Shown: one piece after another, positions 20,548 to 58,875 of the stretch
Layout: every line of letters begins with the position of its first letter
Position numbering within the stretch: the stretch's first letter is position 1
Translations under genes and position numbers: made by a program
Notes under the pieces: generated by a model
The model's input: only the letters and a program-made list of their open reading frames with translations
Databases searched by the model: none
What the model was told of the DNA's origin: nothing
Source: Thiohalospira halophila DSM 15071
Lineage (GTDB): Bacteria > Pseudomonadota > Gammaproteobacteria > Thiohalospirales > Thiohalospiraceae
Assembly: GCF_900112605.1 (NCBI RefSeq)
Contig: NZ_FOMJ01000002.1
Span: forward strand, 186,001 to 250,000
Direction: 5' to 3'
DNA: 64,000 nucleotides

Positions 20548-20634
20548 GTCGGTGCTCACTGTCCCGGGGCCCTGGTATTCCGACAAGTGGTCGTTGATGG
20601 GCCATCGACGGAAGGCGATTCGAGCAGCCGGGTG

Positions 20635-20730
20635 GGGTGGGATGGCTCGGCAGGAGCCTCGGCGGCATGGATGCAGCCGTGGAGGCTACAGGGACGTATG
20701 TACGCCGTCTCCTGCCGAGCCATCCCACCC
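20635..20730. repeat. Hairpin element copy 1 (22-bp arms, 52-nt core)
   Basis: Arms 20635-20656 and 20709-20730 are perfect inverted repeats (left arm starts GGGTGGGATGG). The 52-nt core 20657-20708 begins CCTCGGCGGCATGGATG and contains CAGGGAC. The same core recurs at 27913-27963 and, inverted, at 49126-49176 and 58105-58156, whereas the arms are unrelated in sequence. It fills part of the 321-base gap between the asnO-like gene and grxD. The rest of the gap holds the grxD promoter and nothing else that I can see. Confidence 0.9.
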
Positions 20731-20779
20731 TAGCCGGCGCCCATCCGATTGGCGCCCAGGGCAATCCCTAGCGCGGTAC

Positions 20780-27878: not shown

Positions 27879-27997
27879 GGCCCTGTCGGGGAGAGGTAGG
27901 GGGTGCACGGGGCCTCGGCGGCCATGGATGGCCGCCGTGGAGCGCCAGGGATGGTCCTCGCGTCCCCGTGCACCCCCTACCTCTCCTCGACAGGGCC
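27879..27997. repeat. Hairpin element copy 2 (34-bp arms, 51-nt core)
   Basis: Arms 27879-27912 and 27964-27997 are inverted repeats of 34 bp with one G-T pair (left arm starts GGCCCTGTCGGGGAGAGG). The core 27913-27963 begins CCTCGGCGGCCATGGATGG. CGGCGGCCAT pairs with ATGGCCGCCG inside it. This core matches the inverted core of copy 3 at 49 of 51 bases, yet the arms share no extended similarity. It sits in the 401-base region between the divergent fumC and pdhA genes, which otherwise holds only promoters. Confidence 0.93.
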
Positions 27998-30238: not shown

Positions 30239-33200
30239 ATGGCCGAACCCTATACCGTGAAGATGCCCCAGCTCTCGGACACCATGACCGAGGGCACCGT
30301 GGTCAGCTGGGAGAAGAATGTCGGGGATCCCATCACCCGCGGCGACGTGGTCGCCACGGTGGAGACCGACAAGGCGATCATGGATGTGGAGGTCTTCCGC
30401 GAGGGCTACCTCTCCGGCCCCGTTGCACCGGTGGACGCCACCGTCGCCGTGGGCGAGGCCATCGCCTACATCGTTGCCAGCGAGGACGAGGTGGCCGGGG
30501 CCGATGCCGAGGCGCCGGCGGTTGGCGAGGCCGCTCCGGAGCCGGCGGCCGATCCGGCCCCGGCCGCCCCGGCCGATGCCTCCCACACCATCAAGATGCC
30601 CCAGCTCTCGGACACCATGACCGAGGGCACCGTGGTCAGCTGGGAGAAGGAGCTGGGCGAGCCCATCGAGCGCGGGACCGTGGTCGCCACGGTGGAGACC
30701 GACAAGGCGATCATGGACGTGGAGATCTTCCGCGAGGGCTACCTCTCCGGTCCGCGCGCCGAGGTGGATTCGGTCATCCCGGTGGGTGAGCCCCTGGCCT
30801 TCCTGGTGGATTCGGCCGACCAGGTGGTCTACGAGGGGGTCGCCGTCTCCGGCGGTGGTGCCTCGGCCGGGGGCAGCGAGGCCCATGGCGGCGGCGATAC
30901 CCGGCCTGCCGCCACCGCCGCCCCGGCGGCACCGGCTGGCGGGGAGGGGGATGTCACCCCGGCCCCGCGCCCCGAGAACAAGCACGCCACGCCCTACGCC
31001 CGAAAGATCGCCGCCTCCCAGGGTGTGAACCTGAACAACCTCAAGGGCAGCGGCCCGGACGGCGTCATTACCGCCGAGGACGTGCGCAATGCCCAGCCGG
31101 TGGCCCGGCCCACCGAGACCGCCGAGCAGGTGCCGGCCCACGTCATGCCGGAGATCCAGGTCCCCGGCGACGGCCGCAACATGACGGCCATGGAGAAGGC
31201 GGTGAGCCACTCCATGACCGCCTCGCTCACCATGCCCACCTTCGAGGTCACCCTCCGCGCCAGGCCGGAGGCCCTGATCAAGGCGGCCAAGGCCCACGGC
31301 GTCTCCGTGACCGTGGCCATCGCCAAGGCGTGTGCCCTGGCCATGCAGAAGCACCCGGCCATGAACTGGGCCTACCAGCCGGTGGACAAGCTGGTGGAGC
31401 GCGACCAGGTGGATATCGGCATGGCCGTCTCCGCCGATGGTGGCGGCCTGGTGGTCCCGGTGCTGCGCGGCTGCGAGTCGCGCTCCCTGGAGGAGCTCAA
31501 CGAGTCCTGGGGCGACCTGGTGAACCGCGCCCGCAAGCGCCGGCTGGCGCCGGAGGAGTACGCCAACCCGACCTTCATGGTCTCCAACATGGGCATGCTC
31601 GGGGTGGAATCCTTCACCGCCATCCCCACCCCGGGGACCGCCGGGATCCTGGCCATCGCCGCCGCCGGCGACGAGGGCATGCCGCTGACCATCACCGCCG
31701 ACCACCGCGTCATCAACGGCGCCCAGGTGGCGGAGTACCTCGGCGAACTCAAGGGCATCATCGAGAACCCCACGGAGTGGATGGGCCCCACCGGCCCCGC
31801 CATCCCCGAGGGGGACTGGGACTACGACGTCGTGGTCATCGGCGGCGGTCCCGGGGGCGAGGACTGCGCCCGGGACCTGGCCGGCCACGGCCTCAAGGTC
31901 GCCATGGTCAACGACGCCCCCTACCCGGGCGGCGAGTGCCTGTGGCGCGGCTGCATCCCCTCCAAGGCATGGCGCGCGGCGGCGGACCGCATGCGCGACC
32001 GGGCCCACGACGGCCTGCTGGGCATTCGCGGTACCGATAACGCCAGCCTGGACTGGGAGCAGCTGGAGTCCCACCGCCGTCACGTCCTGGAGGAGCGCGG
32101 CGGCATGGCGCTCAAGACCGACAAGGGCGTGAAGATCGATGTCATCCAGGGGCTGGCCAGCTTCGAGACCGACCACCGGGTCTTCATCGACACCTCCGGC
32201 AACAGCGCCGACCCGCACAACCGCGCCCCGGCCGGCGATGCCTCCGATGGCCGCACGGTTACCTTCGGCGCGGCCGTTATCGCCACCGGCGCCCCGCCCT
32301 TCGTGCCGCCCATCCCGGGCGCCCACGAGGGGCTGGAGTCCGGCGGCGTGCGTACCTCCGACACCGTCTGGTCCCTGCCCGAGCCGCCCAAGCGCCTCGG
32401 CGTGGTCGGTGGCGGCGCCATCGGCATGGAGATGGCGCAGATCTTCGCCGACTTCGGCGCCGAGGTGACCCTGCTGGAGGGCCAGGACCGGGTCCTGGCC
32501 GAGGTGGAGGCCGAGGTGGCCAAGCAGATTACCGCCGCCCTCAACGAGGAGCCCAACCTCACCCTGCAGACCTCGGTGAAGGTGACCGGGATCCAGGGCG
32601 AGCCCGGCAACATGACCCTGACCTGGGCCGACGCCGAGGGCAACGAGTCCTCCATGGCCTGTGACTACGTCATCCTGGCCACCGGCAAGCGGCCCGACCT
32701 GGAGCCGCTGGCGCTGGACAATGCCGGCGTGCAGGTGGAGGAGGGCGTCATCAAGGCCGATGCCCGCTGCCGCACCAGCGCCGACCACATCTTCGCCGTG
32801 GGCGATGTCATCGGCGGCCTCATGCTCGCCCACACGGCCGGCCAGCAGGGCCGCGTGGCGGCGCACAACCTGGTCGGCGAGGATGCCCGCTACGACCAGG
32901 CCATGGACTCCGGGGTGATCTTCACCCGGCCGGAGGCCGGCTTCGTCGGCCTCTCGGCGGAGCAGGCCAAGGCCGCCGGTATCGATGCGGTGGAGGTGAA
33001 GACCCCCATCAACATCGACGCCAAGGCGATGATCACCGGCGAGGAGGTCGGCCTCATCAAGCTGGTGGCGGACAAGGCGACCCACCGGGTCGTCGGCGTC
33101 CACCTGCTGGCCGACCACACCGACACCCTCATCGGCGAGGCGGTGATGATGGTCAGCGGCCGCATGACGCTGGAACAGGTGGCCGAGGCCATCCATCCCC

Positions 33201-33283
33201 ACCCGACCCAGACCGAGCTCTTCGGCGAGCTGGCCCGACGGCTGCTCTCCCGGCTGCGGCGGTCCAAGAAGAAGGGCAAGTAG
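30239..33283 (+). CDS. Fused dihydrolipoamide acetyltransferase (E2) - dihydrolipoyl dehydrogenase (E3)
   Basis: A 1014-residue fusion of two normally separate subunits. There are two lipoyl domains (about 4-80 and 115-191), each with TDKA around the lipoyl Lys. An E1/E3-binding domain follows (about 245-282, TPYARKIAASQG). The acyltransferase domain spans about 310-520. The E3 flavoprotein spans about 528-1010, with FAD motif VVIGGGPGG, redox cysteines Cys567 and Cys572 (CLWRGC), NAD motif GVVGGGAIG and the C-terminal HPHPT. In the acyltransferase motif HRVINGA, Asn replaces the usual Asp of HRxxDG. It follows pdhA and pdhB and completes the complex. Confidence 0.92.
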   Translation: MAEPYTVKMPQLSDTMTEGTVVSWEKNVGDPITRGDVVATVETDKAIMDVEVFREGYLSGPVAPVDATVAVGEAIAYIVASEDEVAGADAEAPAVGEAAPEPAADPAPAAPADASHTIKMPQLSDTMTEGTVVSWEKELGEPIERGTVVATVETDKAIMDVEIFREGYLSGPRAEVDSVIPVGEPLAFLVDSADQVVYEGVAVSGGGASAGGSEAHGGGDTRPAATAAPAAPAGGEGDVTPAPRPENKHATPYARKIAASQGVNLNNLKGSGPDGVITAEDVRNAQPVARPTETAEQVPAHVMPEIQVPGDGRNMTAMEKAVSHSMTASLTMPTFEVTLRARPEALIKAAKAHGVSVTVAIAKACALAMQKHPAMNWAYQPVDKLVERDQVDIGMAVSADGGGLVVPVLRGCESRSLEELNESWGDLVNRARKRRLAPEEYANPTFMVSNMGMLGVESFTAIPTPGTAGILAIAAAGDEGMPLTITADHRVINGAQVAEYLGELKGIIENPTEWMGPTGPAIPEGDWDYDVVVIGGGPGGEDCARDLAGHGLKVAMVNDAPYPGGECLWRGCIPSKAWRAAADRMRDRAHDGLLGIRGTDNASLDWEQLESHRRHVLEERGGMALKTDKGVKIDVIQGLASFETDHRVFIDTSGNSADPHNRAPAGDASDGRTVTFGAAVIATGAPPFVPPIPGAHEGLESGGVRTSDTVWSLPEPPKRLGVVGGGAIGMEMAQIFADFGAEVTLLEGQDRVLAEVEAEVAKQITAALNEEPNLTLQTSVKVTGIQGEPGNMTLTWADAEGNESSMACDYVILATGKRPDLEPLALDNAGVQVEEGVIKADARCRTSADHIFAVGDVIGGLMLAHTAGQQGRVAAHNLVGEDARYDQAMDSGVIFTRPEAGFVGLSAEQAKAAGIDAVEVKTPINIDAKAMITGEEVGLIKLVADKATHRVVGVHLLADHTDTLIGEAVMMVSGRMTLEQVAEAIHPHPTQTELFGELARRLLSRLRRSKKKGK
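30260..30750 (+). repeat. Direct repeat encoding the two lipoyl domains
   Basis: Positions 30260-30417 and 30593-30750 are near-identical at the DNA level with an exact offset of 333 bases (111 codons), including silent positions. This points to recent duplication or gene conversion of the lipoyl domain. Confidence 0.9.
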
Positions 33284-49091: not shown

Positions 49092-49210
49092 GCCGTGGCC
49101 GCGGGTGGACAGGCCCTGTTCGGGGACGCGAGGACCTTCCCTGGCGCTCCGCGGCGGCCATCCATGGCCGCCGAGGCCCCGAACAGGGCCTGTCCACCCG
49201 CGGCCACGGC
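49092..49210. repeat. Hairpin element copy 3 (34-bp perfect arms, 51-nt core, inverted)
   Basis: Arms 49092-49125 and 49177-49210 are a perfect 34-bp inverted repeat (left arm starts GCCGTGGCCGCGGGTGGAC). The core 49126-49176, read on the minus strand, begins CCTCGGCGGCCATGGATGG and matches the copy 2 core at 49 of 51 bases. The arms of copies 2 and 3 have the same length but different sequence. The element lies in the 353-base gap between rnfE and the unknown gene, which otherwise holds only the latter's promoter region. Confidence 0.93.
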
Positions 49211-56951: not shown

Positions 56952-58043
56952 ATGGCGAACGTTTCCGAGCAGCAGGTGGAGACCGCCCTCAAGGGGTATG
57001 TGGATCCCTACATGGACCGGGACCCGGTCTCGGCGAAGATCGTCGACGGGATCCAGGTCGACGGCGACCGGGTCACCGTGAATCTCAAGGTGGGCTTCCC
57101 CGTCGAGGGCTACCGGGACGAGCTCGCCGCGGCGGTCCGCGACGCGGTGAAGGGCGGTACGGAGGCCAGCGACGTTACCGTCAACATCGAGCAGAAGGTG
57201 GAGACCCACTCGGTGCAGCAGGGCGTCTCCCCCATCTCCGGGGTCAAGAACATCATCGCCGTGGCCTCCGGCAAGGGCGGCGTGGGCAAGTCCACCACGG
57301 CAGTGAATCTGGCCCTGGCCCTGGCCGCCGAGGGTGCCAAGGTGGGGCTGCTGGATGCCGATATCTACGGCCCCAGCACCCCGCGGATGATGGGCCTCTC
57401 CGACAAGCCCGATTCCAAGGACGGCAAGACCCTGGAGCCCATGGTCAACTACGGCGTCCAGACCATGTCCATCGGCTACCTCATCGACGAGGATACCCCC
57501 ATGGTCTGGCGCGGGCCCATGGTCACCCAGGCCCTGGAGCAGCTGCTCAACGACACCAACTGGGACGACGTCGACTATCTGGTCATCGACCTGCCGCCGG
57601 GCACCGGCGACATCCAGCTGACCCTGGCGCAGAAGGTGCCGGTCTCCGGGGCGCTCATCGTCACGACCCCCCAGGACATCTCCCTGCTGGATGCGCGCAA
57701 GGCGCACAAGATGTTCGAAAAGGTCTCGGTGGACACCCTGGGAATCATCGAGAACATGTCCATCCACATCTGCTCGAACTGCGGCCACGAGGAGCACATC
57801 TTCGGCGAGGGCGGCGGTCAGTCCATGGCGGACGAGTACGGGATCGACCTGCTGGGCTCGCTGCCCCTGGATATCCACATCCGCGAGCAGGCCGACGGCG
57901 GCAAGCCCACCGTGGTCGCCGACCCGGACAGCCGGCTCACCGAGATCTACCGCCAGATCGCCCGGCGGACGGCGGCCCGGCTCTCCCTCAAGGGGCGGGA
58001 GTACAGCCACAAGTTCCCCAACATCGTCATCCAGGACAACTGA
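56952..58043 (+). CDS. apbC: Mrp/ApbC Fe-S cluster carrier ATPase
   Basis: A 363-residue Mrp/NBP35-family protein. An N-terminal MIP18-like domain (VEGYRDELAAAV) precedes the deviant Walker A GKGGVGKST (107-115). DADIYGPSTPRMMG, DYLVIDLPPGTGD and the cluster-binding CSNCGHEEHIFGEGGG follow. It assembles and transfers [4Fe-4S] clusters, which fits the Fe-S-rich Rnf complex and Nth nearby. A TAGAAT -10-like box is at 56853-56858. metG-mrp-dcd is a common gammaproteobacterial order. Confidence 0.95.
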   Translation: MANVSEQQVETALKGYVDPYMDRDPVSAKIVDGIQVDGDRVTVNLKVGFPVEGYRDELAAAVRDAVKGGTEASDVTVNIEQKVETHSVQQGVSPISGVKNIIAVASGKGGVGKSTTAVNLALALAAEGAKVGLLDADIYGPSTPRMMGLSDKPDSKDGKTLEPMVNYGVQTMSIGYLIDEDTPMVWRGPMVTQALEQLLNDTNWDDVDYLVIDLPPGTGDIQLTLAQKVPVSGALIVTTPQDISLLDARKAHKMFEKVSVDTLGIIENMSIHICSNCGHEEHIFGEGGGQSMADEYGIDLLGSLPLDIHIREQADGGKPTVVADPDSRLTEIYRQIARRTAARLSLKGREYSHKFPNIVIQDN

Positions 58044-58074: not shown

Positions 58075-58186
58075 GGTGGTCGGCACAAGTCCCTGATCCC
58101 GGGTACGCCGTAAAGATGTCCCTGTCGGCTCGACGGCAGCATCCCTGCTGCCGACGACCCGGGATCAGGGACTTGCACCGACCACC
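58075..58186. repeat. Hairpin element copy 4 (30-bp arms, 52-nt core, inverted)
   Basis: Arms 58075-58104 and 58157-58186 pair at 28 of 30 positions (left arm starts GGTGGTCGGCACAAGTCC). The core 58105-58156, read on the minus strand, contains CGGCAGCAGGGATGCTGCCG and GACAGGGACAT, clearly related to the copy 1 core, which has ATGGATGCAGCCG and ACAGGGACGTA. The inner stem is conserved by paired changes. It lies in the 262-base gap between apbC and dcd. Nothing else is recognised there. Confidence 0.9.
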
Positions 58187-58305
58187 AGGTATTCTCCGGG
58201 GAAAGGACGCGGTCTTCCTGCCCACCGGCCTCGGCCACTGGGGTGGCGGCCGTCGCCGTGCTACCCTCCCCGGCTTCCCGGAGGCGCGGCGACGAGGGCC
58301 CGAGC

Positions 58306-58875
58306 ATGAGCATCAAATCCGACCACTGGATCCGGCGCATGGCCACCGAGGAGGGGATGATCGACCCCTTCGAGCCGGAGCAGGTGCGCACCGGCGAGGA
58401 CGGCTCGCCGCTCATCTCCTACGGCACCTCGAGCTACGGCTACGACATCCGCTGTGCCGACGAATTCAAGATCTTCACCAACATCAACTCGGCCATCGTC
58501 GACCCCAAGGCCTTCACCGACGAGAGCTTCGTCAGCTTCAAGGGGGATGTCTGCATCATCCCGCCCAACTCCTTCGCCCTGGCGCGCACGGTGGAGTACT
58601 TCCGGATCCCCCGCTCGGTGCTTACTATCTGCCTGGGCAAGTCGACCTACGCCCGCTGCGGGATCATCGTCAACGTGACGCCGCTGGAGCCGGAGTGGGA
58701 GGGCCACGTCACCCTGGAGTTCTCCAATACCACGCCGCTGCCGGCCAAGGTCTACGCCAACGAGGGCGTGGCCCAGCTCCTCTTCCTGGAGTCGGACGAG
58801 GTCTGCGGGACCTCCTACGGGGATCGCGGGGGCAAGTACCAGGGGCAGCAGGGGGTCACGCTGCCCCGCTCCTGA
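58306..58875 (+). CDS. dcd: dCTP deaminase
   Basis: A 189-residue enzyme that makes dUTP from dCTP. It starts [36 protein letters not shown], the catalytic-Glu region [14 protein letters not shown] and [14 protein letters not shown] are signatures. The ATG at 58306 follows GACGAGGGCC. It shares orientation with apbC, from which it is separated by hairpin element copy 4. Confidence 0.95.

Follow-up and report, generated by a model that had tools for sequence, protein, structure and literature searches.

Repetitive extragenic palindromes (REPs), BIMEs and REPINs are short, non-coding, intergenic multicopy sequences of palindromic nature that often occur as inverted pairs and form a strand-specific hairpin. 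REP units measure 20–40 nt and have a stem of conserved sequence with an unpaired GTAG/CGTC tag at one end (PMC3733652). The hairpin at positions 58075–58186 of the window, i.e., of the whole 64,000-nt stretch of Thiohalospira halophila DSM 15071 that was analyzed (GCF_900112605.1, NZ_FOMJ01000002.1, positions 186,001–250,000, forward strand), is one copy of an element that shares these general features. It differs from REPs in that it is about 110 nt long, combines a conserved core with a long outer stem that is free in sequence, and folds as a three-way junction. The hairpin flanks contain no common tag; the element resembles REPs as a multicopy intergenic palindrome and not in the GTAG/CGTC signature. 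The best explanation is that it is a REP-like dispersed non-coding chromosomal repeat, which is recognized and maintained in the form of its folded, single bottom strand, and we give this an even chance of being correct; a CsrA-binding RNA ranks second and a passive maintenance of the palindrome third.

Three further groups of described sequences are close. The TIRYT-associated terminal inverted repeats (TIRs) of Stenotrophomonas maltophilia (PMC3733652), compared here by description, are self-complementary, are often paired at short distance and share a host genus with the present element, whereas a search in 34 genomes and at 35 Stenotrophomonas loci found no Y1 transposase gene with the present element at its flanks. 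The decoy RNAs CsrB, CsrC and RsmX/Y/Z and the TwoAYGGAY motif (RF01731) contain, like the present element, two or more GGA hairpin loops in an A-N-GGA-N context, while the present element occurs in dozens of dispersed copies and has outer arms of 25–50 bp; on nine copy-bearing loci no match to TwoAYGGAY was obtained even at E ≤ 10. Miniature inverted-repeat transposable elements (MITEs) such as ERIC, NEMIS and RUP are likewise intergenic imperfect palindromes of about 110 nt, whereas the present element has no fixed terminal inverted repeat sequence, its arms differ between groups, its ends are not shared across subfamilies, and neither a related transposon nor, at the Stenotrophomonas sites, a clean empty site was found. 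Integron attC sites were also considered and rejected, as conserved R''/R' ends (RYYYAAC...GTTRRRY) are absent and, by inspection, the outer ends share no sequence between subfamilies.

The hairpin at 58075–58186, hereafter copy 4, is a 112-nt three-way junction composed of outer arms and two inner stem-loops that form the core. The outer arms (58075–58104 and 58157–58186) are 30 nt each, are 93% complementary and are spaced by 52 nt. Copy 4 folds far better than shuffled sequence, with z values of −11.4 and −11.7 when its two strands are treated as DNA and of −11.9 when the bottom strand is treated as RNA. The window contains four copies of the hairpin:

58075–58104, plus strand: 5' outer arm of copy 4, 30 nt (inverted repeat I1)
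58105–58156, plus strand: conserved 52-nt core of copy 4, subfamily A, two stem-loops (covariance-model match G000:C2:244090-244174; folds)
58107–58129, minus strand: stem-loop H1 of copy 4, with bottom-strand loop 58117–58124 reading CAGGGACA, one base off CANGGANG (model columns 18–40)
58131–58156, minus strand: stem-loop H2 of copy 4, the inner stem under study, with bottom-strand loop 58140–58147 reading CAGGGATG (model columns 42–67; covarying pairs 46-63, 49-60 and 50-59)
58157–58186, plus strand: 3' outer arm of copy 4, 30 nt (inverted repeat I1)
20627–20738, minus strand: copy 1, subfamily B, core on the minus strand (G000:C2:206639-206723)
27879–27997, minus strand: copy 2, subfamily E, core on the minus strand, between divergent genes (G000:C2:213895-213978)
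49092–49210, plus strand: copy 3, subfamily E, core on the plus strand (G000:C2:235111-235194)

With a covariance model built from 20 copies, 44 copies were found in the 2.69 Mb genome, which are mostly intergenic and fall into at least five core subfamilies. The unit spans about 105–150 nt, with a core of 51–54 nt consisting of two stem-loops between long outer arms. In this genome the arms usually comprise 27–38 bp and, outside subfamily A, are unrelated between most copies. The sequence of the outer arms differs from group to group, yet pairing is always kept.

It was claimed in an earlier note that bases of the inner stem change on both sides between copies 1, 2 and 4 while pairing is retained, and that this points to selection for a folded single strand. 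The three inner-stem strings on which this rested are present in the sequence. Pairing is retained with the exception of one unpaired T-C inside the inner stem of copy 1, and two-sided changes within the window amount to one clean inner-stem position (G-C in copies 2 and 3, A-T in copy 4), which is weak when the window is taken alone; in the wider set of copies covariation does appear. Among 20 copies 96.8% of the cells are paired, compared to 73.4% in shuffles and at most 52% with slid partners. The covariation test proposed in the note was run in an R-scape-like manner on 161 distinct ungapped cores: inferred substitutions were re-dealt on the branches of a FastTree tree, and G statistics with average product correction were compared for 1,176 column pairs at a cut-off of E ≤ 0.05. 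The signal exceeded this phylogenetic null with five significant column pairs, all of which are predicted inner-stem pairs (26-37, 27-36, 46-63, 49-60 and 50-59), four of them with E = 0.0025, the resolution limit, and one with E = 0.025. In the pattern used to scan named genomes, the letters of the loops and a portion of the H2 stem (ACGGC) were preset, therefore copies from those genomes are no free sample; the copies of T. halophila are free of this restriction, and its 23 distinct cores alone yielded three significant pairs, all three within the structure. Compensation is directly visible at one arm pair: besides C-G, versions exist in which the left base, the right base or both have been replaced (L353, L357, L365). 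Much of the difference in the outer arms between copies reflects whole hairpins that are inherited or exchanged as units and is alone no evidence of selection.

The mismatches within the outer arms reveal a strong strand asymmetry. In bottom-strand letters, the first 117 elements showed ratios of 119:21 for GT:AC, 36:7 for GA:CT and 23:2 for GG:CC, and the asymmetry is even between the left and the right arm. The same was observed for 41 independent elements fetched after the pattern had been noted (GT:AC 32:4, GA:CT 5:1, GG:CC 5:0). If isolated mismatches are counted once per arm group, the ratios are 79:21, 21:3 and 15:2, respectively, totaling 115 versus 26; 34 of 40 arm groups point in the same direction and two in the opposite one. 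The counts were too small for a polarization of mismatches within arm groups. Because G-T, G-A and G-G outnumber A-C, C-T and C-C the same way in 34 of the 40 groups, the bottom strand looks to be the constrained strand. The mismatches in the arms are thus those that a folded bottom strand tolerates, which argues for a constraint on a single folded strand and not merely on a palindrome. Together, the tree-corrected covariation and the strand-specific mismatches support the selection for a folded single strand that the earlier note had suggested. As to the nature of this strand, DNA nearest-neighbor energies favor G-G, G-T and G-A over C-T, A-C and C-C, whereas RNA nearest-neighbor energies favor only G-U and G-G, with G-A equal to C-U. 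With one parameter each, the DNA-energy model beats the RNA model by 7.75 log units, and the mismatch spectrum thereby favors DNA as the probable single-stranded form.

The copies behave as units of DNA. Close pairs are frequent in Stenotrophomonas and in several other genomes, and the core orientation within these is always plus followed by minus (16 of 16). At one orthologous intergenic site in 17 Stenotrophomonas genomes (L353–L369), nearly all genomes carry two hairpins at the same pair of positions; the hairpin type found there, i.e., the arms along with the core subtype, varies from genome to genome, with flanking genes that are about 90% identical. Two of these genomes (L367, L368) have the hairpin types exchanged between the two positions, as would be expected after an inversion between paired hairpins. 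At a second Stenotrophomonas site the presence of the hairpin is variable and some losses resemble deletions between short direct repeats. The hairpins show no consistent orientation to genes, which fits an element acting at the level of DNA.

A mechanism can be proposed in which the functional form would be the folded bottom strand, the complement of the strand read in the earlier note. This strand displays two identical CANGGANG loops, 20 nt apart, on top of a stem of 25–50 bp. A trans-acting protein, probably one protein acting on both loops, may recognize the folded single strand, and such recognition, while the repeat spreads or is maintained, would keep the stems paired. The arms would need only to pair and could drift fast. 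As DNA, the units act like cassettes: they are present singly or as close pairs with fixed relative orientation, are exchanged as a whole at fixed sites, and seem to be inverted as pairs and lost by short deletions. Binding by such a protein presumably drives the spread of the repeat.

Several observations weigh against this explanation. A uniform, about six-fold mutational strand bias, in which bottom-strand C changed more than G, fits the mismatch ratios about equally well, and the mismatch spectrum thus favors the single-stranded DNA form and does not prove it, although we consider a strand-specific mutation bias the less likely cause of the asymmetry. No mobilizing gene was found: the Y1 transposase genes in the 34 genomes and at the 35 Stenotrophomonas loci lack a flanking hairpin, and Y1_Tnp is entirely missing from several genomes rich in copies. 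At the Stenotrophomonas sites no case of clean insertion into an empty site was found, and absences there can be deletions. Finally, the loop motif is one recognized by an RNA-binding protein.

The latter point leads to the alternative that the element acts as RNA. The transcribed bottom strand would form two predicted CsrA/RsmA-binding hairpins, which could titrate CsrA or subject neighboring transcripts to it, resembling scattered decoys of the CsrB/RsmZ type. We regard this as possible and clearly second to a REP-like repeat recognized as a folded strand. The consensus sequence bound by RsmE/CsrA is (A/U)CANGGANG(U/A) (PMC6692469). The bottom-strand loops read C-A-N-G-G-A-N-G in 157 of 161 distinct cores for H1 and in 159 of 161 for H2, and CANGGANG is present in both loops in 155 of 161. 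The N positions vary freely, more so in H1, while the remaining six positions hardly vary. Within the own genome both loops read CANGGANG in 41 of 44 copies, which were found by the covariance model rather than by the loop pattern. The full consensus with the flanking A/U pair is found in 101 H1 loops and in only seven H2 loops. The GGA motifs of the two loops are 20 nt apart, and two GGA hairpins at this distance would suit the CsrA dimer. The genome encodes two csrA genes (G000:C3:6495-6650 and G000:C1:45701-45847), for its relatives within the family one or none was found, and csrA is present in all element-bearing genomes tested save one incomplete assembly. The same two-hairpin reasoning was applied before to TwoAYGGAY (PMC4333381). 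However, csrA is equally present in relatives without the element, and the H1 loop of copy 4 itself reads CAGGGACA. RNA energies predict no asymmetry between GA and CU mismatches, whereas 21:3 was observed. Furthermore, the bottom strand shows no preference for being sense to adjacent genes, and Stenotrophomonas tends toward a sense top strand; gene orientation was rejected as proof of a role in mRNA, as it is mixed. For subfamily E of the own genome (L074–L079), the bottom strand of all six copies with a resolved neighbor is in sense with a gene that begins 68–230 nt further on, in contrast to subfamily A, whose copies for the most part follow stop codons. The DNA and the CsrA-RNA readings are not exclusive, and a repeat acting at the level of DNA may in addition titrate CsrA upon transcription. 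It is a tentative and rather doubtful idea that the element is a self-spreading repeat of Gammaproteobacteria with paired CsrA/RsmA-binding hairpins, dozens of copies of which would constitute a dispersed CsrA decoy or control network made of exchangeable cassettes.

According to a further alternative, there is no selection on folding: palindrome-templated repair or gene conversion together with cassette inheritance would keep the arms alike, and covariation would be a by-product. Long perfect palindromes are known to self-correct by template switching, and the exchange of whole cassettes at orthologous sites is in line with this process. As it leaves unexplained the strand asymmetry in 34 of 40 groups, the conserved loops with their free N positions and the tree-corrected covariation of the short inner stems, we judge such passive maintenance to be improbable.

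Slightly less probable still, and unlikely overall, is that the element represents the TIR of a RAYT/TIRYT (Y1 tyrosine transposase) system, comparable to the self-complementary paired TIRs of S. maltophilia ORF 1152. The sole Y1_Tnp gene of the own genome (L249, G000:C4:141433-141765) encodes a protein of about 360 aa with a C-terminal part that by eye is DnaA-C-like, a feature described for TIRYT subclass 2.1 (PMC6006769), and it has no flanking hairpin. A RAYT/TIRYT-associated repeat was rejected, as Y1_Tnp genes flanked by the hairpin are missing from the genomes and loci named above.

A bidirectional transcription terminator or 3'-end stabilizer is very improbable, since the placement of subfamily A, mostly 16–34 nt past the stop codon of a resolved sense upstream gene and often followed by GGCCTTTT, and that of the Stenotrophomonas pairs, mostly between convergent genes according to approximate gene calls, are opposed by other subfamilies located upstream of genes, such as subfamily E, or between divergent genes, and by the lack of a T-run in most copies, with a short T-run following only most subfamily A copies and with mixed orientation arguing against an intrinsic terminator. 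Copy 4 is intergenic between two plus-strand genes:

56952–58043, plus strand: upstream gene, 363 aa, by eye like an Mrp/ApbC-type ATPase (putative), stop codon 31 nt before the hairpin (open reading frame (ORF) call)
58307–58875, plus strand: downstream gene, by eye like a dCTP deaminase (putative; ORF 58243–58875, start placed at ATG)

Beyond T. halophila, a pattern scan of named genomes detected the core in many Gammaproteobacteria, namely in Methylomonas, Nitrococcus, Zobellella, Shewanella, Sedimenticola, Stenotrophomonas, Haliea, Halorhodospira and others, and model searches found 4–91 copies per genome in 13 element-bearing genomes. Genomes of the same family are nearly devoid of the hairpin, with matches in one of 11 and only two matches there. 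A 72-nt core-based query gave no match in 72,556 plasmids and none in 50,697 phages. No Rfam family reached the gathering threshold on the window, and at a permissive threshold all matches on nine copy-bearing loci and one copy were far under the gathering scores; generic hairpin matches (miRNA precursors, Ysr224) were set aside for their scores far below gathering. Neither the core letters nor descriptive terms retrieved an earlier report from open-licence papers. If the proposed explanation is right, the repeat family is widespread and apparently uncatalogued.

Some copies show additional features. The arms reach up to 55 bp in a fetched set of copies that includes a Halorhodospira metagenome-assembled genome (G041). 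Several contigs of this genome (L292, L295–L298, L300, L306, L310) end within or just past a hairpin copy, which suggests that near-identical copies break its assembly. In L224, which is orthologous to the L123 site, the H1 loop of the core carries an insertion of about 80 nt that is an unrelated palindrome. Many Stenotrophomonas copies (L199–L218, L331–L346) have a conserved GACAG(N)TTCC motif after the 3' arm, and many have (CAACAG/AAAGCC)n-like runs before the 5' arm. Elsewhere in the window, the ORF 30239–33283 (1014 aa) contains an internal duplication in the form of a 246-nt direct repeat (30249–30494 and 30582–30827, 80% identical).

The mismatch test shows which strand of a palindrome is constrained, gives a hint as to DNA or RNA, and could be applied to further palindromic repeats. 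Sites where whole hairpins are exchanged in place and pairs are inverted lend themselves naturally to the study of palindrome-driven recombination. If the proposed explanation is true, this repeat family inverts the usual REP layout, with a fixed core and with arms that are free in sequence but always paired, and its twin CsrA-type loops could link a repeat of selfish appearance with a global regulator.
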